27,511 nucleotides of DNA from a virus. The stretch is from positions 1 to 27,511 of the IMG/VR virus record IMGVR_UViG_3300010885_046063; one strand, written 5' to 3'. Of the stretch, positions 4,281 to 20,951 are shown one piece after another. The notes under the pieces were generated by a model, which ran no database searches, was not told the DNA's origin, and saw nothing but the letters and a program-made list of their open reading frames with translations. Numbering within the stretch: the first letter of the stretch is position 1; every line of letters starts with the position of its first letter. The translations under genes were made by a program, and so were the position numbers.

Positions 4281-6521
4281 ATGACTACAAATAGAATATT
4301 AGGAACAAAAACCCCGGCCCAGTATGCCCGTGAACGAGCACCGGGTATACGTATTGACTCGGGGCCGTACCTAGCAATAGTTAAGGACAATTCAGATCAA
4401 TTGTTTCACGGTCGTCTAAGGGTCTACATTCCTGAATTTGGAAGTGATCCCAATGCAGAATCCAGTTGGTTCACAGTAAACTACGCCAGTCCGTTTTTTG
4501 GGGAAGTAAATCCAGGAGACAGAGGGCAAGCCGGTACCGATCCTGTATATGGTAAAACTAGACAGTCCTATGGCATGTGGTTCGTGCCGCCCGATCTTGG
4601 GGTCACGGTACTGGTTACATTTGCTGTAGGTAATCCTGATCTAGGTTATTGGTTTGCCTGTATACCTACTCCGCGAGCACACCAAATGGTTCCTGGTATT
4701 GCTGCTTCTAGCAACTATGTTGAAAATGGCACAGCAACTAAAGGCGACTTTCCGCAAGTACCAGTAGCTGAAGCAGTACTGGACCTAAGAGCAGACTTTT
4801 TAAATAGTCAGCGGCCAGTGCACACGCCGCAATTCAATATACTTCGTGATCAAGGTATTGCAGGCGACGCCGATCGCGGAGTTGTAACGTCTAGTTCACA
4901 ACGGGAGTCCCCATCTAGAGTATTTGGCTTTAGTACTCCTGGGCGCCCCGACCCTGATCCAGCTTATGGAACTGATCAAATCACACCCGATGATAACTTT
5001 CAAAAAAGCATTGTTGACAGCATCAATGGCGGGAATTCAAAGCTAGCCGAAGATTTATACAAGCCCACAGCTAGAAAAGGTGGGCACTCGCTGGTCATGG
5101 ACGACGGCGATCTAGTGGGCAATAATCAATTAGTGCGTCTTCGTTCAGCAACTGGTCATCAGATCATGATGAACGACTCTGCTGGAATCATTTATGTTAT
5201 TAACGCTGCCGGCACTGCTTGGGTGGAAATGACCCCTGACGGTAGTATTAACGTGTTCTCGGGTGGGTCCATCAGTATGCGAGCACAAGGCGGGATGAAT
5301 TTTCATGCTGATCAAGACATAAAATTTCATGCTGGTGGCAACATAACTATGAAAGCCAACGGGTCTTTAATTGCCAACAGCAAAAATATTTCTTTCAAAG
5401 CAGAATCAACACTAATTGCCGACGGCAACACATTGGTACTAGTAAGCGACTCTGACACTGTAATTCACGGTGACAGTTCATTGACGTTGAGTTCCGGGGG
5501 AGACTTAACTGCAACTGGCAGCATAGATTTGTCTTCTACAGGCGGTAACAAGCCCGGGTCTGGTGTTTCGCTGTCTACTACGGACTTTACTGAAACAGCC
5601 AAGTCTGGGTCAATTTGGGCTGCTAGCAGCAGCAACGCTACAAAATCAACAGTAAGCATTTTACCAACGCACGAACCATGGGCTCGACCTGATGGACAAG
5701 TTGATAGACAAGCTGCACAACAAGCCAATGCAACACCCAATGATGCCAATACAGATCCTAATACCAGTTCTAATCGTGCTGCAATTTCAGCAGCCGATTT
5801 TGGTAGTAAGGCTATCAACAGCTCCGCTAGTTTGTTTAAACCTGACACTGGTGCTTTGCAAACACTAGCTAAAGGCCTGCGTGTTACAGCTGAACAGATT
5901 GCAGCACAATTAGATCCACCCAATCCACCTATTGGCAATTTAACTGCGCTACAAACTAAAGCACTGTTTGCACAATTGGGATTACGCGAAAGTGGGTTAC
6001 GCTGTAATGTGGCCGGCGGTCGAACTGAATCAGGCAAGTATACTGGTAACTTTTTGGGCAAATATCAACTAGGGGCACAAGCACTAGCAGGTTCCGCTGG
6101 CTACATTGACAAAAAATGTCTTACTACAGAATATAAAAACAATCCCACATATGCTGTTCAAAGCGATGCTTGCTGGACTGGTAAAAACGGTATTAAATCT
6201 AGAACAGACTTTTTGAACAATTGCAGCGCTCAAGAAGATGCTATGCACGCCTTTACACAAGAACAATATAAAACCATGGTGGGCAACGGTACCATAAGAT
6301 CCACTGATACTCCTGAAGAAGTTATGGGCAAATTGACTGCGGCACATTTGATTGGGGTTGGTGGTGCATCCAAGTTGTTTAAAACAGGCATTGACAGTGC
6401 TGACGCTAATGGTACACATGGTAAATCATATTATGAACTGGGCAGACATGCTGCAAACGTAGCAGCTAATATGGAATATACACAAAAGCTAGCACAAAAT
6501 AAAACAACCGGCACTTCATAA
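4281..6521 (+). CDS. gp5: Baseplate hub needle protein gp5 with C-terminal wall-degrading domain
   Basis: 746 residues. An OB-fold typical of gp5/VgrG needles spans about 26-140 (LFHGRLRVYIPEFG, YGMWFVPPDLGVTVLVTF, GNPDLGYWFACIP). A linker leads to KGGHSLVMDDG (266-276), LRSATGHQIMMND and a parallel beta-helix of short repeats (about 300-425: GGSISMRAQGGMNFHADQDIKFHAGGNITMKA). After a second linker (430-550) comes a lysozyme/transglycosylase-like domain (about 551-735) with LGLRESGLRC (E570 as candidate catalytic acid), NFLGKYQLGAQAL and TAAHLIGVGGASKL, the usual order of an SLT-type fold. Its role is to puncture the outer membrane and digest peptidoglycan during injection. T4 gp5 (575 aa) carries its lysozyme between OB fold and helix; here it is last. 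gp25 starts 14 bp downstream. Confidence 0.85.
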   Translation: MTTNRILGTKTPAQYARERAPGIRIDSGPYLAIVKDNSDQLFHGRLRVYIPEFGSDPNAESSWFTVNYASPFFGEVNPGDRGQAGTDPVYGKTRQSYGMWFVPPDLGVTVLVTFAVGNPDLGYWFACIPTPRAHQMVPGIAASSNYVENGTATKGDFPQVPVAEAVLDLRADFLNSQRPVHTPQFNILRDQGIAGDADRGVVTSSSQRESPSRVFGFSTPGRPDPDPAYGTDQITPDDNFQKSIVDSINGGNSKLAEDLYKPTARKGGHSLVMDDGDLVGNNQLVRLRSATGHQIMMNDSAGIIYVINAAGTAWVEMTPDGSINVFSGGSISMRAQGGMNFHADQDIKFHAGGNITMKANGSLIANSKNISFKAESTLIADGNTLVLVSDSDTVIHGDSSLTLSSGGDLTATGSIDLSSTGGNKPGSGVSLSTTDFTETAKSGSIWAASSSNATKSTVSILPTHEPWARPDGQVDRQAAQQANATPNDANTDPNTSSNRAAISAADFGSKAINSSASLFKPDTGALQTLAKGLRVTAEQIAAQLDPPNPPIGNLTALQTKALFAQLGLRESGLRCNVAGGRTESGKYTGNFLGKYQLGAQALAGSAGYIDKKCLTTEYKNNPTYAVQSDACWTGKNGIKSRTDFLNNCSAQEDAMHAFTQEQYKTMVGNGTIRSTDTPEEVMGKLTAAHLIGVGGASKLFKTGIDSADANGTHGKSYYELGRHAANVAANMEYTQKLAQNKTTGTS

Positions 6522-6535: not shown

Positions 6536-6913
6536 ATGGCAACTTATCTAGGGTTTTCCACTGATAGCAAATTTAAAAACTTCAGGGCTACTGATTTTGA
6601 ACTAGCTGTTGAAGATTTGCTCAACCACTTCAATATTAGAGTTGGGGAAAAACTCATGAATCCCAACTTTGGATGTATAGTATGGGATATGCTGTTTGAA
6701 AATTTTACCGATGATGTGCGTACAGTGGTTATAGAAAACATAGGTGAAATAATTGATGCTGAACCTCGTTTGAATCTAAACACCATCAGTGTTGACGAAT
6801 ACGACCAAGGGCTGCAAATAAATTTAGAACTGCAGTATGTAAACTCGTCAATGGCTACTAATCTCAGTGTGTTTTTTGATCAAAACAGCGACAAAGTTTA
6901 TGTTGCTGGGTAA
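6536..6913 (+). CDS. gp25: Baseplate wedge protein gp25 (lysozyme-like fold)
   Basis: 125 residues, close to T4 gp25 (132 aa). Diagnostic features are FELAVEDLLNHFNIRVGEKLMNP, then NFGCIVWDMLFENFTDD and ENIGEIIDAEPRL, the conserved GE-x-x-MNPxFG-x-x-WDxLFE core of the gp25/TssE family. With gp53 and gp6 it forms the inner wedge ring and nucleates sheath assembly. It is not enzymatic in phages despite the old family name. It ends 57 bp before gp6 and is probably the last gene of the transcript starting near 392, although readthrough into gp6 is likely. Confidence 0.93.
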   Translation: MATYLGFSTDSKFKNFRATDFELAVEDLLNHFNIRVGEKLMNPNFGCIVWDMLFENFTDDVRTVVIENIGEIIDAEPRLNLNTISVDEYDQGLQINLELQYVNSSMATNLSVFFDQNSDKVYVAG

Positions 6914-6970: not shown

Positions 6971-9900
6971 ATGGCCAGTTCATCTCGACAGCAATCACTA
7001 CTAGTAGCCGAAGATTGGAAAAAAGTCTACCAAACTTTTAGGCAAGCCGACTTTCAAAGTTTTGACTTTGAAACCTTGCGTAAGAGCATGATCGACTACT
7101 TGAAGTTATATCAATACGAAGATTTCAACGATTTTATTGAAAGCAGCGAATACGTTGCACTAATTGATTTGATTGCTTTTTTAGGGCAAGGTATTGCTTT
7201 TAGGGCAGATTTAAATGCACGTGAAAACTTTATTGATACCGCTGAACGTAGAGACAGTATACTACGCCTAGCTAGACTGATCAGCTACAGCCCAAAACGC
7301 AACATGCCAGCGCAGGGCTACCTAAAAATCCAAGCTGTATCAACTACAGAAATTTTAACAGACTCGGCCGGCAATAGTCTAGCCAATCAAATCGTAAATT
7401 GGGCAGACCCCAATAACGATAATTGGCAAGAGCAGTTCAATACTGTTTTCAATGCTGCTATGGTGTCAACTCAACGTGTGGGTAAACCAGCAGCCCAAAC
7501 CACATTAGGTGCAGTTAAGTATCAGCAATATCAGCTGTTGTTGCCTACTGGAACAACACCAGTATATAAATTTTCTTCTACAATACAGGGTGTTAGTACC
7601 AATTTTGAAATAGTGGGTACCACTATTGAAGACGGTGTCTTAAGAGAATCTTATCCTTCGTTAAGAGGGCAATTTGACTTGCTCTATAAAAATGATGGTC
7701 AAGGGACACAGTCCGGTAACACCGGCTTTTTTGTAAGATTCACACAAGGGCAGTTAACTAATCAAGACTTTACTATTGATGAAAGTTTGAGTAATAGAAT
7801 TGTATCTGTAGACACCAACAACATTAATGAAAATGACGTGTGGTTGTTTGATGTAGATTCTACTGGTGCTAGCAGCACATTGTGGAAAAGTGTTCCTGCA
7901 GTAGCTAATTCTAATATTGTATACAATACAACTAGCAATTTTACTAAAAAAGCCTATCAAATTACCAGCAAAAACAGTGATCAAATTGACTTGACATTTG
8001 GCGACGGTAATTTCGCACAGATCCCAGTAGGCAATTTTAGAATCTATTATAGAGTTTCTAACGGACTCGCATATAAAATTTTACCTACAGATATTGTTCG
8101 TATTCCAATCATTATCAATTATCTCAGTAGAAGCAACAAAATTGAAACACTGACTATCTCAGTTAGCTTATCAACTCCTGTAACCAATGCTAGTGCTAGA
8201 GAAACTATTGACGAAATTCGCCAACGAGCACCGCAACAGTACTACACTCAAAATCGTATGGTCAATGGCGAAGATTACAACATCTTCCCGTATACAAAGT
8301 TTGCTAATATTGTTAAATCTAAAGCAGTTAACAGAACCAGCAGCGGTATTAGCAGGTATCTTGATGTAATTGACGCTACTGGAAAACACTCAACAACCAA
8401 CATATTTGGTGATGATGCAATACTATACGCAGATAATACTGTAGAATCTTTTACGTTTGACTACGCAACCAGCGCTGAAGTAGCAAATATGATAGGGTCC
8501 CAACTAAAACCAGTTATGACCAGTAGGGCAATGTTGCATTTTTATTATGCTTACTTTGCTCGAGCAACGTCCTCATTATTGTGGCATCAAAGCACTGTTA
8601 GCACTAATCAATGCACTGGTTATTTTAGACGAGCAAACAGGGATCAACCCGAGCCTATTGGTGCAAATTATGCCGATACAATAGTAAAAGGCACACTAAT
8701 TAAATTTGCTGCTCCCGCAGGCAAGTATTTTGATCTTGACAACAATCTAGCAACTGGTACACCAAATCTTGCAATTGGGCATCGACTGTTTATATACGCT
8801 ACTGTGGTTACCTTAATTTATGATGGCACAAATTCAGGACAAGGTAATTTTGCTGACGGGGTTGGGCCAGTTTCATTAAATGAAAAAATTCCTTCTGACG
8901 CAGTTATAAGCGAATTTATACCTGTTTGGCAAAGTGGATTCACCAACGACCTTACTACTACTGTTATTGCTGATATTCTAGCAAATAAAAACTTTGGGTT
9001 GGCCTTTGATTCAAACAACGGAGTTTGGAAAACAGTTACTACGCTGTTGCCCGCCAGTGCGTCTTTTAATGAAACAACTAATCCATGGTTAATTAGATTT
9101 GACTATGCGTCAGGTGTCTATACAGTTTCGTATAGATCATTGAAATACATTGTAGAAAGTGCGTTGCAAACACGTTTTTACTTTGATTCACGTTTGAAAA
9201 TTTTTGATTCAAAAACTGGGCAGTTAGTAATTGACCAAATCAAAATGTTGAAAGCTAATTCTCAGCCTGACAACGGTTTGCCTTACCCACAAGATCAAAT
9301 ATGTCACGTATTTGCACAAGTTGTAGAAGCTGACGGCTATGTCGACTCTACTAAAATTGAAGTATCTTTTGCTGACAGCGACAATGACGGCGTGCCCGAC
9401 GATCCAGACTTTTTTGAAACTGTAGTGTTTTCAAAATCCGCTAGTGATATTCCGGGGCTAGTTGATCGAACAAATCCTGCACGTGGGTACACTAAAACTT
9501 CGCTGGTTTTTTATAAAACCAGTACCGAGCAGTATAACTATATTCGTTGGGTCCCAATTGCTAAAGGGGAGGTGCTTATATATTCATCCTTGGCCAGTAT
9601 CACTGCAGTAAAAAATCAATATCCTGTTGGACAGCTTTTTTATGCAATCGGATCAAAATTAATATATCAATCCAATAGCAATTTTGAACTGTTGGATGTA
9701 ACTGCATCTTATCTAATTCGTGAAGGGCGTCAAAATTTATTTTTCCAATACAAGCACAACAGCCCACAAAGTAGAAGAATAGATCCTAGTCCAGTTAACA
9801 TTGTTGACTTGTACATATTAACTAAACAATATGATATTGATTATCGTCTCTGGGCGCAAGACAGTACTGGTACAATAGCCCAGCCTGCACAACCCAGTTC

Positions 9901-10357
9901 AGAAGAGTTGGCAGTAAGTTACAGTGATTTAGAACAGTATAAAATGACCAGTGACAGTATCATTTACAATTCTGCCAAGTACAAACCTATTTTTGGGGCA
10001 GGCGCTGATACTACACTGCGAGCAGTGTTTAAAGTGGTTAAATTAGAAAACAGTTTGGCCAGCGATGCCGAGGTTAAATCCAGTTTGATTTCGGCAGTGA
10101 ATACATACTTTGCTGTTGAAAATTGGGATTTTGGTGAAACATTTTATTTCAGTGAAATGGCTGCATATCTACATCAACGTCTAGCATCTATGGCCAGTAG
10201 CATAGTAATTGTGCCTGCACAATTAACGCAAAAATACGGTGCATTGCAGCAAATTAATGCTGAACCTGATGAAATTTTAATCAGTACTGCTCGAGTTGAG
10301 GATGTAGCAATTATTTCTGCAATTACTGCTGTTCAACTTAACTCGTTCGGGTCATAA
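6971..10357 (+). CDS. gp6: Baseplate wedge protein gp6 (enlarged)
   Basis: 1128 residues against 660 in T4 gp6. The N-terminus is typical: AEDWKKVYQTFRQADFQSFDFETLRKSM, then EYVALIDLIAFLGQGIAFRADLNARENF (about 60-88) and RLARLISYSPKRNMPAQGYLKI (about 99-120). A conserved DEIRQRAPQQYYTQNRMVNGEDYNIFPYTKF lies at 414-444. The C-terminal gp6/J-like domain (about 1015-1125) includes VENWDFGETFYFSEMAAYLHQRL. The extra length is mainly between about 480 and 960 and contains a calcium-loop-like DSDNDGVPDDPD (802-813). gp6 dimers form the inner ring that holds the wedges around the hub. Five bases separate it from the next gene, so the two are probably cotranscribed. Confidence 0.85.
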   Translation: MASSSRQQSLLVAEDWKKVYQTFRQADFQSFDFETLRKSMIDYLKLYQYEDFNDFIESSEYVALIDLIAFLGQGIAFRADLNARENFIDTAERRDSILRLARLISYSPKRNMPAQGYLKIQAVSTTEILTDSAGNSLANQIVNWADPNNDNWQEQFNTVFNAAMVSTQRVGKPAAQTTLGAVKYQQYQLLLPTGTTPVYKFSSTIQGVSTNFEIVGTTIEDGVLRESYPSLRGQFDLLYKNDGQGTQSGNTGFFVRFTQGQLTNQDFTIDESLSNRIVSVDTNNINENDVWLFDVDSTGASSTLWKSVPAVANSNIVYNTTSNFTKKAYQITSKNSDQIDLTFGDGNFAQIPVGNFRIYYRVSNGLAYKILPTDIVRIPIIINYLSRSNKIETLTISVSLSTPVTNASARETIDEIRQRAPQQYYTQNRMVNGEDYNIFPYTKFANIVKSKAVNRTSSGISRYLDVIDATGKHSTTNIFGDDAILYADNTVESFTFDYATSAEVANMIGSQLKPVMTSRAMLHFYYAYFARATSSLLWHQSTVSTNQCTGYFRRANRDQPEPIGANYADTIVKGTLIKFAAPAGKYFDLDNNLATGTPNLAIGHRLFIYATVVTLIYDGTNSGQGNFADGVGPVSLNEKIPSDAVISEFIPVWQSGFTNDLTTTVIADILANKNFGLAFDSNNGVWKTVTTLLPASASFNETTNPWLIRFDYASGVYTVSYRSLKYIVESALQTRFYFDSRLKIFDSKTGQLVIDQIKMLKANSQPDNGLPYPQDQICHVFAQVVEADGYVDSTKIEVSFADSDNDGVPDDPDFFETVVFSKSASDIPGLVDRTNPARGYTKTSLVFYKTSTEQYNYIRWVPIAKGEVLIYSSLASITAVKNQYPVGQLFYAIGSKLIYQSNSNFELLDVTASYLIREGRQNLFFQYKHNSPQSRRIDPSPVNIVDLYILTKQYDIDYRLWAQDSTGTIAQPAQPSSEELAVSYSDLEQYKMTSDSIIYNSAKYKPIFGAGADTTLRAVFKVVKLENSLASDAEVKSSLISAVNTYFAVENWDFGETFYFSEMAAYLHQRLASMASSIVIVPAQLTQKYGALQQINAEPDEILISTARVEDVAIISAITAVQLNSFGS

Positions 10358-10362
10358 TAATT

Positions 10363-13300
10363 ATGGCCCAAAAGAAAACTACGAACTTATTACCACGTAA
10401 GTTTAGAACCACACCAAACACTAAATTTCTCAATAGCGCAGTTGAACCATTAATTTCTGAACCCGAGCTACGCCGAATCGATGGATACATTGGGCAGCAT
10501 ATAACTAGATCCTATAGCGTTGGTGATGGTTATGTACAAGAAGCTACCCCAGAACGCCAACATTTTCAGCTTGAGCCAACACTTATAGTTAAAGACGCAA
10601 CAACAGAAAAAACTAAATTAACTGTTGGGTATGTTGAGCTGTTAAACAAATTGCGGTATTTAGGCAATACTGTAACAAACGAAAGCCTGCTGTTTGAACA
10701 ACCATTCTATAACTATCACGGACATTTTGATACTGACAAATTTGTCAATTTTGCACAATACTATTGGATACCCAGGGGCGTTCCTGCTGTAATTATTAGA
10801 GATGACAACACCATCAACATTATTGATGACATTCTAGGACAAACAGATTATACTAGTGCAAACGATGTACTTTTTACTAATGGGTTGTTGATTAAATTTG
10901 TAACACCAACAGAACCTGCAGAATATCAAAATCAAACTTATTATGTTGAAGGTGTAGGATCAGATATTAAATTAGTTAATACCAAACTACTAGTAACACC
11001 TGAAACTTTTATAACCTATGTAGCTACTCCTTACGACACTGTTGCTTACGACTTTGAAGGGTACGATACAAATTTAAACGATCCGCAGTACCCTGAATAT
11101 TTTGTTATGAATCGAGCAGATCGAGCAGCGAGTGCTTGGTCCCGATGCAATCGATGGATGCATATAGATGTAATACAAGCAATGGAAGAGTATCAAAATA
11201 TCACGATTGACATGTCTACCTATGTTAGAGCCACTAGGCCTATAATTGAATTTGACATTGATATCGCGTTGTTTAACCACGGAGCTATCCATTATGGGAC
11301 TATTGATCTCATAGACACAACAACAACTGATCCACTTAGTGATGCTGCGTATTCTGGTGTAGAAAATTCAACAATTGCTAGATTGATAGACACAGCAGCA
11401 GTGCAAAACAGTTATCAGATAGTGTTTACTGCTGCACTAGATCCTGATGTAAAGAATAAAATCTATACCGTGCGTATTGGCAATTTTGGCAGTGACGGCG
11501 CTGCTAGAATCAGTCTCACCGCCACTACAGCTCCGTTACTAGGCAATTCCAGTTTATTAGTAACACAAGGAACAAACAAAGGACGCACCTTTGTTTATAG
11601 AAATAACGTGTGGAGCCCGGCACAACAAAAGACTCGAGTAAATCAACCACCATTGTTTGATTTATTTGACGCAGCAGGCAACAGTTACGCAGACACTGCC
11701 TATTATCCCAACAGCACTTTTGCTGGTACACCGCTGTTTTCTTATAAACCTGGCACTGGTGCAGTGGATGCAGTTTTAGATATGGCACTGTCTTATCGCA
11801 GTATTGGCAACATTGGCGACATACAATTTGAAGATTTTATAACCACTGGAACTTTTACTTATTCAGGAACTACAGTATCTACAGCAGCAGGACAAATTAA
11901 AATTGCCGGTGAATTAACCAACAATTGGTTGCCAATCGCGAGCAATTCTTTTCAAAGACAAATTTTTGAATTGGCTGCTACGGACACTAGTGCTTATACT
12001 ATTGACATTGTCCCCGTTAACGGAAAAGAGTCAATAGAAATAAATGTCAACGGTGTATTTTTAAATAGAGATGAATTTAGTTATAACACAACAACTAAAA
12101 AAATATCTTTTAATACAGCTCTAAATGTTGGGGATTTTGTTAGTATATTAGTTTATAGTAATCAAGTTTCAAACACTGCGTACTACGAGCTACCGATGAA
12201 TTTGATTAACAACAGCGATAATCAGGACATTAGTACAGCTACATTAGGGCAGCTAAGGAATCATATTGTTACACAATACCGTAATTATATTGGCAGTGCT
12301 AATTCTTTTCCAGGAACACTAAGCGTTCGAGACTTGCCTAAGGGCGCACGTGTGGAAGGCACAATGTTACAGCACAGTGCTCCATTGACTCCAGCAATGT
12401 TTTTCTTAACCAGCAGCGACTTTGATTTTGTTGCCAGTGTTGAACAAGCCCGTGTTGCTTATAGTTTCTTTAAGAGACGTTTTTTAGAAGCAGCTTCTAC
12501 ACTGGGCAATTTGGATTTTACTGATGTTCCTGCAGCAGTTGATACAGTTTTAGATTATCTTAATCAAAACAAGTCTGTTGACATGCCTTACTATTATAGC
12601 GACATGTTAGCATCAGGCACAGCAGTATCTAAAATTACCTATGATGTTAGATTCTCAGATCAACCCGGTTACGGTATCGAATCAATTTTTAACGACGCTG
12701 TTCCGTCGGCTAGATCAGTACTGGTTTACTGCGATAATGTGCAATTGATTAAAGGGCTAGACTATGAGTTTAATACTGCACGGCCTGGTATAACACTGTT
12801 ACGGGCATTGCCCACAGGTGCAGCAAGTTTAGAAATACGAGACTACGCTTCTACTGATGGATCTTATATTCCTGAAACACCAACAAAAATGGGGCTTTGG
12901 CCGGCATCGGTCCCTGAGATAGCAGTAGACACAAGTTTTCGCAATACTCAAACAGTTGTAGTTGGGCACGACGGTAGTAGAACTGTGATACTTGGCGACG
13001 CTCGAGACGACATGTTGCTAGAACTAGAGTTGAGGATTTACAACAATATCAAGCGTACATTTGATGCCAGCGTGTTAGACTCGCACGAAGTGTTTCCCGG
13101 TGCGTTTAGAACAACCGGATTTACACTTGATGAAATAAACTCAGTACTTGCTCCTTATTATTATAGATGGAAAGACGAAAACAATCTTGAACTTGTGGGC
13201 GCTAATTTTTATAAAAACAGCGATGCATGGACGTGGAACTATTATAATCAATTGGCCAAGGACAATTCCCGTCTTAATGGTTCATGGGCAGCAGTGTTTC

Positions 13301-13728
13301 GCTATTGGTATGACACTGCTGAGCCCAGCACTAGACCTTGGGAAATGTTGGGCTACAGTTCTAAACCCGTTTGGTGGACTACCAAGTACGGTCCTGCCCC
13401 GTATACCTCTGGTAATACTATACTGTGGGATGATATACGAGACGGCATTCAAACTGGCGATGATGGTGTTACTACAACACCTAATCCTTTATTTGCTAGG
13501 CCTAATATTTACAATTACTTGCCTGTTGACAGCCAAGGACAATTACGCACGCCATTAGACATATTTGTTAAAGTGTTTAATGGTGCAATAACCAACACTG
13601 CTTATGTGTTTGGTATGGGAGATCCTGTAGAAAACAGTTGGCGTCGCAGCAGCGACTTTGCTTTTGCTGCACAAATAGCTATGGCAGTGTTAAAACCAGC
13701 AAGATATTTTGCTCGGTTTGCATCGTGA
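10363..13728 (+). CDS. Large baseplate/virion structural protein in the gp7 position
   Basis: 1121 residues, no signal peptide or membrane helix. The N-terminus (NLLPRKFRTTPNTKFLNSAVEPL) and the following FEQPFYNYHGHFDTDKFVNFAQYYWIPRG (about 111-139) resemble large virion proteins of aquatic T4-like phages, as far as I recall. The middle is beta-rich with Ig-like strands (about 340-420 and 510-600). The C-terminal third is Trp/Tyr rich (WKDENNLELVG, SKPVWWTTKYGPAPY, ENSWRRSSDF). T4 places gp7 (1032 aa) directly after gp6, and the size fits, but I see no diagnostic gp7 motif. It starts 5 bp after gp6 with only a weak ribosome site and is probably coupled to it. Confidence 0.55.
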   Translation: MAQKKTTNLLPRKFRTTPNTKFLNSAVEPLISEPELRRIDGYIGQHITRSYSVGDGYVQEATPERQHFQLEPTLIVKDATTEKTKLTVGYVELLNKLRYLGNTVTNESLLFEQPFYNYHGHFDTDKFVNFAQYYWIPRGVPAVIIRDDNTINIIDDILGQTDYTSANDVLFTNGLLIKFVTPTEPAEYQNQTYYVEGVGSDIKLVNTKLLVTPETFITYVATPYDTVAYDFEGYDTNLNDPQYPEYFVMNRADRAASAWSRCNRWMHIDVIQAMEEYQNITIDMSTYVRATRPIIEFDIDIALFNHGAIHYGTIDLIDTTTTDPLSDAAYSGVENSTIARLIDTAAVQNSYQIVFTAALDPDVKNKIYTVRIGNFGSDGAARISLTATTAPLLGNSSLLVTQGTNKGRTFVYRNNVWSPAQQKTRVNQPPLFDLFDAAGNSYADTAYYPNSTFAGTPLFSYKPGTGAVDAVLDMALSYRSIGNIGDIQFEDFITTGTFTYSGTTVSTAAGQIKIAGELTNNWLPIASNSFQRQIFELAATDTSAYTIDIVPVNGKESIEINVNGVFLNRDEFSYNTTTKKISFNTALNVGDFVSILVYSNQVSNTAYYELPMNLINNSDNQDISTATLGQLRNHIVTQYRNYIGSANSFPGTLSVRDLPKGARVEGTMLQHSAPLTPAMFFLTSSDFDFVASVEQARVAYSFFKRRFLEAASTLGNLDFTDVPAAVDTVLDYLNQNKSVDMPYYYSDMLASGTAVSKITYDVRFSDQPGYGIESIFNDAVPSARSVLVYCDNVQLIKGLDYEFNTARPGITLLRALPTGAASLEIRDYASTDGSYIPETPTKMGLWPASVPEIAVDTSFRNTQTVVVGHDGSRTVILGDARDDMLLELELRIYNNIKRTFDASVLDSHEVFPGAFRTTGFTLDEINSVLAPYYYRWKDENNLELVGANFYKNSDAWTWNYYNQLAKDNSRLNGSWAAVFRYWYDTAEPSTRPWEMLGYSSKPVWWTTKYGPAPYTSGNTILWDDIRDGIQTGDDGVTTTPNPLFARPNIYNYLPVDSQGQLRTPLDIFVKVFNGAITNTAYVFGMGDPVENSWRRSSDFAFAAQIAMAVLKPARYFARFAS

Positions 13729-13741
13729 GCGATTTTGCCCA

Positions 13742-13749
13742 AATAAATA
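13742..13749 (+). promoter_or_regulatory. T4-type late promoter motif (AATAAATA)
   Basis: AATAAATA followed by TTTAATACTATT lies in the 47-bp gap between the two giant structural genes. It differs from TATAAATA only at the first base. With T4 spacing the start would be near 13755, and a TTAGG ribosome-binding candidate lies at 13760-13764 before the ATG at 13776. Confidence 0.6.
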
Positions 13750-13775
13750 TTTAATACTATTAGGCTCTTGTCAGT

Positions 13776-16700
13776 ATGGCTTTAAATAATTTTCGTAAAT
13801 CCAATGTTGTGGTCAACGGCACCGTTGCCGCAAACGGAACAGTTGCTCGAGCGGCAGGCTATGTTAATTGGATCGCAGACAATTTGCGAAAAAACTTTCG
13901 TTCCACTGATACTATTACCAAAGAGCTTGCAAAAACCAGCGTACAGCTGAGCTATGCACTTGGTGGATACTCAACAAAGCGCTATCTAACTATATTAGGG
14001 GAGCAAAGTTCTCCAGCAGCGACTTCTAATGGTATACTGATCCCCGAAGACGATTATGAAATATTTTTGCACAAGAGTCAACCTACTATGCAGGTTATCT
14101 ACAGTGCAGTAGTAGTCAAAAAAACCAATTTGGGATACAGCGTATCAGGATATGATACTGCTCGCCCATATTTTACAATTGTTCCTTCGGTAATAACCAA
14201 CAACAGCTATGGCATTTCAGTTAATGGTGTTGGCGCAACAGTATACAATGATTATGAAGACTATACAGTTGATCTGCCGTATAACACTGAATTCAACACT
14301 ATTCAACAAGTTGTAGACTTTTTAGTAAGTTACCAGCGTTATTTGGTGTCAATGGGTGTACTGTTTGTAGACACTTCGCCAACTCTTAAAGAAACACTAA
14401 ACTTTGTATTAAGTGCTAAAGAGTTTTTGACTTGGCATCAACAAGGGTGGAAAGAAAACAACTTAATTGTGCTTAGTCCTGTAGCTGATACATTAAAAAT
14501 TAATCTACTCAGTGGCACAACTGATCGCATACAAAATAACAAGTTAAGTAGTCGTGTACTAGATCAAAACTTTAACATTGTTGACAATAAAGATCTTGAC
14601 GTAAATCGTTACGATAATTTTACTTCTATATTTTGTAAACGAGCAACTACTATTGGGTTAGCGGTGCTAGATGTGGTTGAGTATGAACACCAAATCGTTT
14701 TCAATAATATTACTCAATTCAATGACATACTTTACCAGCCTGAGTTGGGCAGTAGACAGCCTAGATTAAAAATATCTGGTACAAAAACTGACAATTGGGC
14801 CGGTACCTTGGATGTTCCTGGATTCATTGTTAATTTTAGCACAGTTGACAATTGGTCTGCTGATCAAGTTTATTCTATTGGCGACATCGTTAAGTACAAG
14901 ATTTTTTATTATGTAGCATTAGAAAGTAACACTGGCTTAACATTTAACACTAGTGTTTGGCAGCAAATAGACTATAACAGCATTAATCAAACACTGTTAC
15001 CAAACTTGGCCACAATGGCCGCGCAGGGTAAAGATTATTACAATGTTAACACAGTTAATATTAATGAATCTATTGACAGTCATGCTCGCGGACTTATAGG
15101 ATTTAGAGCAAGAAGTTACTTTAACGACTTGGGCATTGACTCGGTTAGCCAAACCAAGTTCTATCAAGGCTTTATTAGAAATAAAGGGGCATTGCCGTCT
15201 TTATCGGCTTTGAAAAATGTTAATTTTGGTAAACTGTATAATACTGCATCCATTTACGAAGATTGGGCTTTTAGAGTTGGCGAGTACGGCGGAACTGACA
15301 TTAATCAATCCATTGAAATTGCGCTACAAGAACAGTATTTTTCCACTAACCCTGGTATTGGAGAGCTAGGTAGTGTTCAAGAATATACAGGATCGCAGTT
15401 AATAACCCTTAACGATTTTTACAAAAAGCCAGTTAATTTTACCACTGATGAATTTGCAGAAGAATTTCTAGCATACCGTGAAGATTCTATTCGCAGTGCT
15501 GGTTATGTTGATCCTGACGATGTCAACGCTACTGTATTTGATATACAAGATTTGTCGGCCAGTGCCCTACTGCCCGATATCTATCCAGGGTATGTTATTT
15601 GGTGTGCACTAGACTACACTAGATCATGGAACGTGTATAGAGTATCTGACACTGGACTAACTTTTAAAGAAATCAGCAACGCATTAAATCAACAGTTGAT
15701 GATTGAGTTTAAAGATATTCACTTGTTAAGTGTTGGGGATATCGTTGCTGTTAAAAATTTCAGTGATCTTATTGACGGGTTTTATCGTGTAGACGCAACT
15801 CCTACAATAGATTCTATCATAGTTACTACTACACAAAGCCTATTAGGCTTTGTATCTACAACTGGTACTGGTGTATTTTACAAGCTGATAGGGTTGAGAT
15901 ATGCTAATATTGAAAACAGCGTAGAGTTTACGCCACAAAACAATTGGCGTGAAAACGAAAAAATTTGGATCGACAATTATGATGAGGCCGGCAAGTGGGC
16001 TGTATTAGAAAAACATTCACCTTGGAATGTAGATTCTACAACACTGTATTCTACTACAGTTTCAGGATTTGGTGGGTCGTTAGCAACCGAAAGCACAGGT
16101 ACATATCTTATAGCAGGTACTAGTAATAAAAAGGTACTGGTTTATAAGAAAAACGCTACAACAGGGGCATACAACACTATTCAAACTCTAACAAATTCCT
16201 ATACTGGAAATGTTAGCTTTGGCGCTAACGTTGACTATTACGATTCTATACTAGCTGTTGGGGATTTAAGGTTTGCTAATTCTGGTGCAATTTTATTGTA
16301 CCAAAAAAACGCTACAACAGATCAATTTGAAATTGGACAGTTTATTGCACCAGTATTGTCAAATACTTCGCAATTTGGGTTTTCGTTTGTATTGAGCGCT
16401 AATTATCTAGTAATAGGCGCTCCGGGTATCAATACCATTTACATCTATAAAAAACAAAGCCAACCCGAGTATACACTGAGTGTACCTAAGCCCAACGACA
16501 ATATACCGTTAAATTCTACTGTTACTTTGGCTATTACTCCTACAGCAAGTGATTCTATTATACTGATAACCACTGCTGGCAATGTTATATCTCCAAGGAC
16601 ATATTCAATTACAGGTGCAACAATTACATTTAGTGTAACTCCTACAATTGGGTATACAGTATACCAACGCAGTTATTATTTTAAACAGTATCAAATAATT

Positions 16701-19700
16701 AACGACAAGAGCATTAGTGGCCCAACTGACTTTTTTGGCTATAGCGTTGACATAAACGGTGCTGAAGACAAAATTTATGTTGGCGCACCCTACGCTGATG
16801 TTTACGATAATACGCTACAGAAATTCGTCAACAATTCTGGACGTGTTGTTGCCTATTATTTGAACAGTGGGTATTTTCAGTTTATGCAACGAATTGAACC
16901 CACCGATGTCAAAGTCAATGGTGAATTTGGTACTGCTGTTAAGTCTTGTAAAAATGATCGTTCACTGTTTGTAGGAGCCCCGGGTGTTAGCTTCCCTGAC
17001 ACATATAGATCAGGACAAGTTTACAGATTTGACAATACAGGACAAATTTTAGGTACTATATCTACTAAAACAGTGACTGGCAATTTACCTTTGTCTGGTA
17101 CTATTGTAATCAACGGTGTTGAACTTATAGTCAGTGGTGACATCAACAATGTCAAACGTCAAATCGACTCGGCTGCAATACCCTATATTGACACTGCAAT
17201 TAGTAATTCTGTATTAACTATCAGTTCAAGATCGCTAGTTGAATTTAACAAATTAACTGTACTGCCTGGTATTGGTGAAGCATACAGTGAGCTAGGGCTA
17301 AGTTTCTTAACTGAAACACAGGTTATTCCCAATCCCATAAACAGGAATCTCAGTAGGTTTGGTGATGAGTTAGATTTAAGCAACAACGACACCCAACTTT
17401 TTGTTAGTTCTCCTCATGCCACTACTATATTAGATACTGTATTTGACAGTGAAAGTTGTAGTTTTGATGCAACTGCTACTATATTCCGTGATCAAGAAGC
17501 AGACAGTGGTAGTGTTTGTGTGTTTGAATTTATCAAACCACTAACTCCTACTGCCAGTAATTTAGGTAGTTATATATTTGGGCAACAACTAGAATCAGCA
17601 GCAATTAGTCCCGGGGATCTATTTGGTTCGTCTCTAGCAATTGCTAATGAAACTGTATTTGTTGGCGCACCTGGCGACGATATACTGTATGGTACTGACG
17701 ATCGTGGACGAGTGCAGATATTTAAAAATCCCGATATTAAGTCGCTGTGGAGTCGAGTCAAATCCAGCGATGTATTAGTTAATGTAGATGCTATTAATCA
17801 AGCATACCTCTACAACAAAAAGACCAATACAATCGCTGTTACATTAGACATTGTTGATCCTATTAAAGGTCGTATATTGGGCATTGCTCGACAAGATATA
17901 GACTATATAGAATCTCAAGACCCTGCTACTTATAACAGAAGCAGTGGGCTTGATGCATTAGGTGAAGCTAGAATCAGCGAAAACAATTATTGGGCAGATC
18001 AATATGTAGGTCGTTATTGGCTTGACACTAGCCAAACTAGATTTGTTGACTATGAACAACAAGATGTTGTTTATAGAAAAGCCAACTGGAATCGTTTATT
18101 TGACAACAGTGTAGTGCGGGTATATCAATGGATAGCGTCTGATGTATTACCTAGTACATACAGCAGTTACTATGCAGGTGAACCCAAATATCCTTATGAT
18201 GAATCATATGTGGTATCTTATTCTACAGATAAAAGCACTGGCGGCTCACGAGCTACTTACTACTATTGGGTTAGAAACTACAATATCATCCCTACGAATA
18301 AAGGACTAAGTACTACTTCGATTGAAGAATATATTGCAAATCCTAAAGCGTCAACAATTCCTTACATTGCATTTTATTCGCCGACTGCGTTTGGATTATA
18401 CAATGTTGACAACTATATTTCTGGCGATGATACAGTATTGCATATTGATTATGATATTGAACAAAATGATCGAGTTATCCACAGTGAATACGAACTAGTA
18501 CAAGAAAACAACAGTACCAGCAATCCTCCAGCAAGAATACTAAAGAAGTTTATCGACAGTTTGTCTGGGCTTAACTCGATCAATGATCTAGTGCCAGATC
18601 CTGGTCTTAAAGTGTCTGAACGTTATGGTCTTGGTATTAGACCTAGACAAACGCTGCTAATTGATCGTACGGCTGCACTTGATGTTTTGGTTAAACAAGC
18701 CAATGCCATATTAGTTCATTTATTTTCCGCTGAACGTATTGTTGGCACCGACTTTTTCTATAATCAGGGCACACAAGATGCTCGATCCTATTGGCGTTAT
18801 GCTACATGGACAGCTGAAGGGTATGATATTACAACCAAACCACAATACACTGTTGCTAAATTTGCTGATCTTGAAAGAAAAACATATGCGGTTGGCACTA
18901 TAGTAAAAGTGACCAATGACGGTGATCGTTTTGCTATTGTGCAAATAACTGACACTGGATTTGATTTGCAAGCACAAGAACGTGGCACTATTGAACTGCT
19001 GCCTGCACTTTATCAAACCGTTCCGCAGCCTGCTGTTAGAAAATTACTAGACAGTTTATTCTACGAATTGTTGATTGAGGACTATGCAGTATATGCTAAC
19101 CAATTATTCTTTGGGTTGGTTAGATACACCCTGCGTGAGCAAAAGTATTTGGATTGGGCATTCAAGACCAGTTTCTTAACTGTTAATCACAATGTAACGC
19201 AATTTGAGCAATGGCCTAATTATCAACCTGATAATACCACATATTTGATGGATTATATCAACGAAGCCAAGCCTTATCATACTAAAATTCGTGAATATCG
19301 CCCTCGATACAACGGAGTTACTACAGCAGGTGTTACTGCTACTGACTTTGACTTACCGGCATTTTACGATGCGGCTCGAAGTATATTTAGATCTCCCTCG
19401 GGTGAAATTGCGGGTGATGCAACCTTATGGGATATTCAACCACAATATCAAGACTGGTATAATAATTATAAAAACGGCATAGTCTCTGTAAACATTAGTG
19501 TTGCTGGAACTGGTTATTATACTCCGCCGGTCTTGTCTGTTACTGGTGGTGGCGGGCTAGGTGCAGTCTTAGAAGCAGTAGTCAGTGGTGGAACAATTGT
19601 CAGTGTAATAGTCAAAGACACTGGACAAAACTATATCAGCACGCCCACTATAACTGTCTCTCGAGTGGGCACAGTTCAAAGATTAAACACTGGACTAGTT

Positions 19701-20951
19701 GCTGCTGCTTTGGAAAACAAAGCCAGGGGTATTGCTATAGATACAGTGCTTAATGCTGCGTTTGACATTATTGCGAATGGGTTTAAACTTGGGGATATGA
19801 ACAACAGTGGACTCGTCACATTTGATGATAGCCAACTTGTGCGTAGATACAGCACAAACAGTTTAACTGGGCCAGACTTAACACGAGTTAATGCCAAAAT
19901 GACTGCGATTGAGGCCTACGTAATTGATCATAACGGCACAAGCAGTTTAAATGTTGACGCTGTATTGGCTGCGAAATTAGATAATACAACCACTAGAAAA
20001 ATTCAAACACACTTGTTGTTTGATCGTATTGCTTATGCTCCTACCAATACCGACGTTGGATTTGATCTTCAATTGTTTGATGAGGACACATTTGACAGTG
20101 TTAATCCTAACGCTGCTAATCAAAACGCATTAGACCGAGCCAAACAGTACTATACCAGTAATCCAGGGGCTGCAGGACTAGACTACGCTCAACTATTCTC
20201 TGGGATTGAATTCCCTGGATATAACATTCAAGGTGTTAGCTACAATGCTGGTAGCGGGTTTGATGCTTATGCATACGAATCCGCTAATCCCTCTATAGGA
20301 TACAGCGGTGCCGGTGATCAAAACAATTTAGCTGACATGATTATTCAAGGCTCATACAGTGATTTTACTGGTACACGGGCTGAAGACATTGTATTTGATG
20401 GTGGCCAATATATTGACCCTGCACATAGTCATTCTCCAGAGGAACTAGTCCCGGGCATGATATTTGATACACTGGAAATTAGAGTGTTTCATAAGTTTGC
20501 AGGGTCTGCTACGCCCAATATAACATTTAGAATGTTTAAAAACCTACTCAATCAGTACAGTTACTATAGAATGAGCTCAACTAATGCTACCACACTCAGT
20601 CAACCGTTGTTGATTAGTGACACTGAAATCTCTGTTGTATCGGCTGTGGCTTTAGATGCGCCTAGCCCTACCAGTGCAACACCTGGAGTTATTTTTATAA
20701 AAGGCGAGCGCATTACTTATTTTGAACGAGACATTGTTAATAATAAACTACGTCGTATTCGGCGAGGAACGGTTGGTACAGGCGCACCGGCAGTGCATGC
20801 CAGTGGTACAGCAGTTGTTGGTGCAGGCGCTAGGCAAGCACTAATTGATGCACACACTACCGTTTGGTATAATCCAATTACTGGACTTGAAACTTCAACC
20901 ACTGACATAGCAAAATTCTTAAAAGAGCAACCACCGGTGTCTGTAACCTGA
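13776..20951 (+). CDS. Giant virion structural protein with FG-GAP propeller, CBM-like and dockerin-like modules
   Basis: 2391 residues, the largest gene here. Modules in order: an N-terminal domain (YVNWIADNL, ALGGYSTKRYLTILG); a CBM5/12-like motif at 358-398 (W, YSIGDIVKYK, YY, W); seven FG-GAP-like blades between about 757 and 1320 (for example FGFSFVLSANYLVIGAPG at 867 and FGSSLAIANETVFVGAPGDD at 1293); a Trp/Tyr-rich part with FEQWPNYQPD and DYINEAKPYHTKIREYRP (about 1810-1843); a Gly-rich beta module at 1901-1963 (GTGYYTPPVLSVTGGGG); a dockerin-like loop at 2004-2020 (LGDMNNSGLVTFDD); and a beta C-terminus with FIKGERITYFERD. These suggest a peripheral baseplate part that touches the cell surface. 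The start follows a late promoter. Function is inferred from context and modules, not from a recognised family. Confidence 0.6.
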   Translation: MALNNFRKSNVVVNGTVAANGTVARAAGYVNWIADNLRKNFRSTDTITKELAKTSVQLSYALGGYSTKRYLTILGEQSSPAATSNGILIPEDDYEIFLHKSQPTMQVIYSAVVVKKTNLGYSVSGYDTARPYFTIVPSVITNNSYGISVNGVGATVYNDYEDYTVDLPYNTEFNTIQQVVDFLVSYQRYLVSMGVLFVDTSPTLKETLNFVLSAKEFLTWHQQGWKENNLIVLSPVADTLKINLLSGTTDRIQNNKLSSRVLDQNFNIVDNKDLDVNRYDNFTSIFCKRATTIGLAVLDVVEYEHQIVFNNITQFNDILYQPELGSRQPRLKISGTKTDNWAGTLDVPGFIVNFSTVDNWSADQVYSIGDIVKYKIFYYVALESNTGLTFNTSVWQQIDYNSINQTLLPNLATMAAQGKDYYNVNTVNINESIDSHARGLIGFRARSYFNDLGIDSVSQTKFYQGFIRNKGALPSLSALKNVNFGKLYNTASIYEDWAFRVGEYGGTDINQSIEIALQEQYFSTNPGIGELGSVQEYTGSQLITLNDFYKKPVNFTTDEFAEEFLAYREDSIRSAGYVDPDDVNATVFDIQDLSASALLPDIYPGYVIWCALDYTRSWNVYRVSDTGLTFKEISNALNQQLMIEFKDIHLLSVGDIVAVKNFSDLIDGFYRVDATPTIDSIIVTTTQSLLGFVSTTGTGVFYKLIGLRYANIENSVEFTPQNNWRENEKIWIDNYDEAGKWAVLEKHSPWNVDSTTLYSTTVSGFGGSLATESTGTYLIAGTSNKKVLVYKKNATTGAYNTIQTLTNSYTGNVSFGANVDYYDSILAVGDLRFANSGAILLYQKNATTDQFEIGQFIAPVLSNTSQFGFSFVLSANYLVIGAPGINTIYIYKKQSQPEYTLSVPKPNDNIPLNSTVTLAITPTASDSIILITTAGNVISPRTYSITGATITFSVTPTIGYTVYQRSYYFKQYQIINDKSISGPTDFFGYSVDINGAEDKIYVGAPYADVYDNTLQKFVNNSGRVVAYYLNSGYFQFMQRIEPTDVKVNGEFGTAVKSCKNDRSLFVGAPGVSFPDTYRSGQVYRFDNTGQILGTISTKTVTGNLPLSGTIVINGVELIVSGDINNVKRQIDSAAIPYIDTAISNSVLTISSRSLVEFNKLTVLPGIGEAYSELGLSFLTETQVIPNPINRNLSRFGDELDLSNNDTQLFVSSPHATTILDTVFDSESCSFDATATIFRDQEADSGSVCVFEFIKPLTPTASNLGSYIFGQQLESAAISPGDLFGSSLAIANETVFVGAPGDDILYGTDDRGRVQIFKNPDIKSLWSRVKSSDVLVNVDAINQAYLYNKKTNTIAVTLDIVDPIKGRILGIARQDIDYIESQDPATYNRSSGLDALGEARISENNYWADQYVGRYWLDTSQTRFVDYEQQDVVYRKANWNRLFDNSVVRVYQWIASDVLPSTYSSYYAGEPKYPYDESYVVSYSTDKSTGGSRATYYYWVRNYNIIPTNKGLSTTSIEEYIANPKASTIPYIAFYSPTAFGLYNVDNYISGDDTVLHIDYDIEQNDRVIHSEYELVQENNSTSNPPARILKKFIDSLSGLNSINDLVPDPGLKVSERYGLGIRPRQTLLIDRTAALDVLVKQANAILVHLFSAERIVGTDFFYNQGTQDARSYWRYATWTAEGYDITTKPQYTVAKFADLERKTYAVGTIVKVTNDGDRFAIVQITDTGFDLQAQERGTIELLPALYQTVPQPAVRKLLDSLFYELLIEDYAVYANQLFFGLVRYTLREQKYLDWAFKTSFLTVNHNVTQFEQWPNYQPDNTTYLMDYINEAKPYHTKIREYRPRYNGVTTAGVTATDFDLPAFYDAARSIFRSPSGEIAGDATLWDIQPQYQDWYNNYKNGIVSVNISVAGTGYYTPPVLSVTGGGGLGAVLEAVVSGGTIVSVIVKDTGQNYISTPTITVSRVGTVQRLNTGLVAAALENKARGIAIDTVLNAAFDIIANGFKLGDMNNSGLVTFDDSQLVRRYSTNSLTGPDLTRVNAKMTAIEAYVIDHNGTSSLNVDAVLAAKLDNTTTRKIQTHLLFDRIAYAPTNTDVGFDLQLFDEDTFDSVNPNAANQNALDRAKQYYTSNPGAAGLDYAQLFSGIEFPGYNIQGVSYNAGSGFDAYAYESANPSIGYSGAGDQNNLADMIIQGSYSDFTGTRAEDIVFDGGQYIDPAHSHSPEELVPGMIFDTLEIRVFHKFAGSATPNITFRMFKNLLNQYSYYRMSSTNATTLSQPLLISDTEISVVSAVALDAPSPTSATPGVIFIKGERITYFERDIVNNKLRRIRRGTVGTGAPAVHASGTAVVGAGARQALIDAHTTVWYNPITGLETSTTDIAKFLKEQPPVSVT

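Follow-up and report, generated by a model that had tools for sequence, protein, structure and literature searches.

A seven-bladed integrin-type FG-GAP beta-propeller inserted in a giant baseplate-operon protein of a putative RaK2-like jumbo phage, a candidate host-binding module

The window analyzed here, the whole uncultivated virus record IMGVR_UViG_3300010885_046063 (27,511 bases), encodes P0001, a protein of 2391 amino acids (13776–20951, + strand) with repeated FG-GAP-like motifs. This raises the question of which fold the repeats form, how they are placed in the protein, and what such a domain would do in a phage. An initial annotation of the sequence had counted seven motifs and proposed that they build an integrin-type propeller carrying extra domains on a phage baseplate. 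All seven motifs were found, and the repeats span residues 758–1319; the positions given for five of them (814, 867, 986, 1051, and 1195) were correct, while the first lies at 764 instead of 763 and the last at 1283 instead of 1293. Of the two Pfam families suggested for checking, FG-GAP_2 (PF14312) matched the whole P0001 with an E-value of 8.5e-13 (48.7 bits vs. a cut-off of 23) in four separate stretches, the best being residues 1278–1316 in repeat 7, while PF01839, tried in its place as the family model, had no match in the window. A sequence search of the PDB with P0001 alone returned nothing.

The fold was then predicted with AlphaFold2 for P0001 residues 690–1335 together with 36 relatives, and the model had a mean predicted local distance difference test score (pLDDT) of 88.0 and a predicted template modeling score (pTM) of 0.89. 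In the model, residues 748–1327 (16017–17756, + strand) form a seven-bladed FG-GAP beta-propeller, each blade of which consists of the strands A (FG), B (GAP), C, and D. Foldseek placed integrin alpha heads at the top (E 1.3e-13), and VIA-align against integrin alpha-M gave a Z of 40.5 and a root mean square deviation (rmsd) of 2.3 over 346 residues spanning 748–1327 (model residues 59–638). The sequence profile of the window and the 36 relatives also matched integrin alpha-4 (E 2.3e-11). In a viral fold library, the best match was an uncharacterized protein of an uncultured Caudovirales virus (E 1.7e-28), and FG-GAP proteins of other phages and of giant viruses ranked below it. As the initial annotation had anticipated, the predicted fold is that of a propeller and aligns with integrin alpha heads along its entire length; at the level of a model, these results confirmed that the P0001 domain is a seven-bladed FG-GAP (integrin-alpha type) beta-propeller. 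Similar to the integrin alpha head (Z about 40, rmsd about 2.3–2.5, about 345 residues), it comprises seven FG-GAP blades in one continuous chain, but with about 19% identity. The domain has a propeller fold of the integrin type but should not be called an integrin, because its repeats lack calcium loops of the integrin kind: no DxDxDG-type loop was found in any FG-to-GAP loop, and the lone pattern match, DKSISGPTD, precedes the FG of repeat 4. Further, unlike an integrin alpha chain, P0001 is a phage structural protein encoded in a baseplate operon, has no beta subunit, and is not an animal receptor.

Repeats were also scored with a hidden Markov model (HMM) trained on motif-picked repeats of homologues, a set that excluded the window and its five nearest relatives. 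Exactly seven repeats were returned on P0001 at 8.2 to 45.2 bits, compared with a 99th percentile of 4.8 and a maximum of 9.3 bits for the best score in 1000 shuffles. In detail, and all on the + strand, these are repeat 1 (residues 758–800, 16047–16175, 16.0 bits), repeat 2 (802–850, 16179–16325, 8.2 bits), repeat 3 (857–895, 16344–16460, 21.1 bits), repeat 4 (972–1031, 16689–16868, 26.5 bits), repeat 5 (1036–1095, 16881–17060, 45.2 bits), repeat 6 (1181–1225, 17316–17450, 20.1 bits), and repeat 7 (1268–1319, 17577–17732, 39.3 bits). Only repeat 2, the weakest, falls inside the extreme range of the shuffles, and it has its strands in the model. As the training repeats came from homologues chosen by motif, this result is a consistency test; the independent evidence for the propeller is the Pfam match, the integrin profile match, and the structure model. 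Among 37 homologues, the window included, seven repeats were found in 24, six in 11, and more than seven in none.

P0001 and the preceding P0008 (10363–13728, + strand, 1121 amino acids) were both assigned to phrog_10938, with E-values of 1.2e-162 and 8.7e-134, respectively. P0008 residues 1–1119 align to residues 1–1415 of a single 3857-amino-acid open reading frame (ORF) in Pseudomonas phage Ettore, and P0001 aligns to Ettore residues 1443–3856 with the propeller left unmatched. Together, the two are colinear with one giant ORF of 3326–4555 amino acids in RaK2, Ettore, SCTP-2, Vibrio 2.275, and Phosso, and the homology is colinear on both sides of the slot that holds the propeller, as expected of a member of the phrog_10938 giant virion structural protein. 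Judged by sequence, P0008 and P0001 are the N-terminal and the propeller-carrying C-terminal parts of the giant structural protein known from RaK2-like jumbo phages, here in split form. Outside the slot, RaK2 ORF070, Pectobacterium phage CBB CBB_236, and Ettore 443 are the same protein in the same order after gp25 and gp6, but they are single ORFs and their slot holds no propeller. RaK2, Ettore, SCTP-2, and Phosso encode the giant protein as one ORF; the window (10363–20951) and its close relatives L001 and L004 encode it as two, while in L050 (9965–13771) and L052 it is split elsewhere, directly before the conserved C block.

The propeller is flanked by the strand WAVLEK (residues 741–746, 15996–16013, + strand), the first arm of a backbone hairpin, and by the strand WSRVKS (residues 1325–1330, 17748–17765, + strand), the second arm. 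Since both arms are strands in the model, the propeller appears to be seated in the turn of a backbone beta-hairpin. The empty site of the relative L091 reads WTVYNYTIRGWTAIRS and aligns with the window sequence that runs from WAVLEK through the propeller to WSRVKS, and the W of WSRVKS is kept in propeller-bearing and empty relatives alike. Between the flanking blocks, the slot measures 106–395 amino acids in RaK2, Vibrio 2.275, Ettore, and SCTP-2 vs. about 700 or more in the window. No FG-GAP was detected by Pfam in the giant proteins of Ettore and SCTP-2, nor on reading through the slots of RaK2 and Vibrio 2.275 by eye. A tblastn search of 50,697 phage records with four propellers found no isolated phage with a propeller in the giant protein, the matches being separate FG-GAP proteins, and a profile search of genome contigs with the giant-protein backbone, made to find a host, found no relative.

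Extra domains had been expected at about residues 897–970 and 1090–1180 of P0001, and both were recovered with slightly shifted borders, at about 896–966 and 1096–1178. Insert 1 (16461–16673, + strand) is a small beta domain between strands C and D of blade 3, with its strands in the model, and insert 2 (17061–17309, + strand) is an alpha/beta domain between strands C and D of blade 5, with strands and a helix in the model. The inserted domains are real, as relatives without one or both of them exist: the insert 1 site is a turn of 13–19 residues in L020, L027, L047, L056, and L089, and insert 2 is absent from L039, L044, L047, L056, L089, and L093. That is, short turns replace both inserts in L047, L056, and L089, only the first is missing from L020 and L027, and only the second from L039 and L044. 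Because the insert-free L047, L056, and L089 form the earliest branch within the propeller-bearing clade, the propeller probably predates the inserts, an order that depends on rooting with propeller-free phages. The C–D loops of a propeller lie on one face, so both inserts would be on the same side. Similarly, the integrin alpha heads with an alpha-I domain (alpha-M, alpha-X, and alpha-L) carry extra domains inserted in the ring, but the alpha-I domain lies between blades 2 and 3, whereas P0001 carries its inserts in the outer hairpins of blades 3 and 5. In L020 (7826–10033), which has no blade-3 insert, extra sequence lies between repeats 1 and 2, so the position of inserts varies among relatives.

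The inserts resemble known domains to a limited extent. The insert 1 profile weakly resembled part of a phage capsule depolymerase (9k4a, E 2.2e-4), and Flagellin_IN was matched by insert 2 in 5 of 29 members (best E 5.9e-5), the copy in the window having no match. An enzyme-like propeller that cuts surface glycans would fit the first of these resemblances, as well as the propellers present in phage endosialidases (PMC4901313) and the GDSL hydrolases and YHYH domain in the same region of relatives; yet integrin heads are the best match by both fold and sequence, and this region of the window matched no catalytic family, so we consider such an activity quite improbable.

To follow the propeller through relatives, 80 of them were collected with the conserved backbone block after the propeller (residues 1326–1880, 17751–19415, + strand) as anchor, a block that shares 33% identity with Ettore and 27–29% with RaK2 and Vibrio 2.275. 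FG-GAP_2 was present in 38 of 49 slot sequences, nearly all of them out of these 80 relatives. On a backbone tree of 57 sequences (rows L029, L050, and L052 unclassified), the propeller label changed 3 times vs. a shuffled mean of 14.0, and the tree is consistent with a single gain at the root of a 47-row clade with 100/100 support, followed by losses in L038 and in a GDSL/YHYH clade. In L066 (7700–10039), a member of the latter, the propeller's own insertion point holds a YHYH domain (E 5.2e-26); YHYH is a predicted tail-associated hydrolase in a published jumbo-phage survey (PMC7824862). The propeller is a dispensable, swappable module, as the site is empty in RaK2-type phages and L091, has lost the propeller in L038, and holds YHYH in L066. 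The loss in L038 and the replacement in L066 would also suit a bulky insert that is neutral, serves no selected function, and is tolerated where the hairpin is exposed. This is very improbable, given that the blade number is near-constant through a deep clade and that the propeller was kept in 38 of the 44 classified rows of the 47-row clade. GDSL hydrolases stand in the slot of the giant protein in L062, L070, L079, and L087. Their site is a second cargo point, directly before the TAGYV motif and upstream of the propeller site, and GDSL was therefore rejected as a replacement at the propeller's point (L062, L079, and L087).

Four genes upstream of P0008 and P0001, all on the + strand, set the genomic context: a gp53-like baseplate wedge protein (1288–1587; phrog_7145, E 1.3e-24; T4 gp53, E 4e-5), a gp5-like baseplate hub and tail lysozyme (4281–6521; phrog_13211, E 9e-42), a gp25-like baseplate wedge protein (6536–6913; phrog_261 and phrog_43, 'baseplate wedge subunit'), and a gp6-like baseplate wedge protein (6971–10357; phrog_10646, E 3.9e-301; phrog_219, E 2.5e-28). 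Proteomics of purified virions recovered 21 unique peptides of the homologue CBB_236 (PMC5259590), whose gene adjoins the gp6-like gene in CBB. This synteny and the virion proteomics of the homologue support P0001 as a virion protein encoded in the baseplate operon, and so lend indirect support to the presence of the propeller protein in the virion and to its baseplate context. P0001 matched no named T4 baseplate protein by HMM, by hhalign, or by fold search of one block. T4 gp7, considered as a counterpart of the giant protein, had no support by sequence (no HMM hit, and an hhalign probability of 0.1), and one backbone block, whose model was too weak to decide on the fold (pTM 0.44), gave no confident match of any kind in the PDB.

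From these analyses, binding of the host cell surface is the most likely role of the propeller, a view that we hold with modest confidence. It is favored because the inserts diverge, because the propeller is dispensable and was replaced by another module, and because phi11 Gp45 and phiKZ gp131C provide precedents. In the proposed mechanism, an FG-GAP propeller seated in a beta-hairpin of the giant structural protein that a jumbo myophage encodes in its baseplate operon would be displayed on the baseplate and bind a component of the bacterial surface; its two small domains each occupy the hairpin that joins the two outer strands of a blade, in blades 3 and 5. Such binding may help the tail to seat on the host, and the inserts may shape the contact face. 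We infer both the outside position on the baseplate and the binding of a host ligand, and with them the adhesion platform that the initial annotation had suggested.

The divergence was compared pairwise among four close relatives, which gives six pairs. Both inserts showed 40–65% identity vs. 61–83% for the N and C backbone blocks, being lower in 6 of 6 pairs, and blades 1–3 were also less conserved than both backbone blocks in 6 of 6 pairs. Several observations weigh against surface binding. Residues 1881–2200 of P0001 vary about as much as the inserts (45–70% identity among the four relatives), so the propeller is not alone in diverging fast, and the inserts may be ordinary filler domains of tail proteins. 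The backbone block after the propeller (pLDDT 80, pTM 0.44 in the model) had no confident fold match in the PDB and none to a solved baseplate protein, and therefore the exact place of P0001 in the baseplate is unsupported. Further, blades 6–7 are conserved to the backbone level, which is also compatible with a docking role.

The main rival builds on this last point, namely that the propeller is an internal docking hub for virion proteins, such as the fibre-like P0010–P0012, and makes no cell contact. Propellers are common as protein-binding hubs, and the fibre-like genes lie downstream of P0001 and P0009. However, the propeller is absent from RaK2-type phages, L091, and L038 and is thus not required for assembly, and no docking partner was identified, which makes a hub rather unlikely. 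P0010, P0011, and P0012 (21589–26091) have an N-terminal domain in common (LLENSAST...GQ.WYD) and appear to be three paralogs of a tail-fibre-like kind, with threonine-rich repeats in P0012. Within residues 1881–2200 of P0001 (19416–20375), a phrog_460 match lies at 1899–1966.

The two precedents for host-surface binding differ from P0001 in architecture. The phiKZ gp131C (PDB 4GBF), a seven-bladed propeller at the periphery of a jumbo-phage baseplate, is suspected of receptor binding (PMC4901313); similar to P0001, it ties a seven-bladed propeller to the baseplate of a jumbo myophage, but by its description it is a C-terminal domain and is not nested in a hairpin. 4GBF was not among the 50 matches listed for the propeller fold, which does not exclude a relation. 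The receptor-binding protein Gp45 of phi11 is likewise a baseplate propeller used in host recognition, but one of five blades, with a cavity that could hold the receptor N-acetylglucosamine (GlcNAc) (PMC4901313), and it is a separate trimeric protein of a siphophage. Possibly, and we put this forward tentatively, the hairpin is, across a large uncultivated clade of jumbo phages, a fixed cargo site for host-recognition modules, in which a propeller acquired once later gained inserts, was lost or exchanged for YHYH in sublineages, and works like an integrin head with an inserted ligand-binding domain.

Propellers on phage baseplates are already known, while an integrin-type one nested in a giant baseplate-operon protein was not found in the searched literature. 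The searched open literature held no description of FG-GAP on a phage baseplate, and both terms co-occurred only in an algal-virus genome paper. If the propeller grips the host, it would offer a defined, movable domain with which to study how hosts are chosen across a wide jumbo-phage group that only environmental DNA has revealed, with the natural empty and replaced versions as ready comparisons, and integrin-type heads with inserted domains would be serving on a phage tail. Other phage FG-GAP_2 proteins are Sinorhizobium phage Phosso gp108 and uncultured phage UFOVP1367_22, with 24 and 4 stretches, respectively, but these are separate proteins that are not inserted in a giant baseplate-operon protein. 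Phosso gp108 (L010:366–11444) has 3692 amino acids and carries C-terminal Laminin-G domains besides its FG-GAP_2 stretches.

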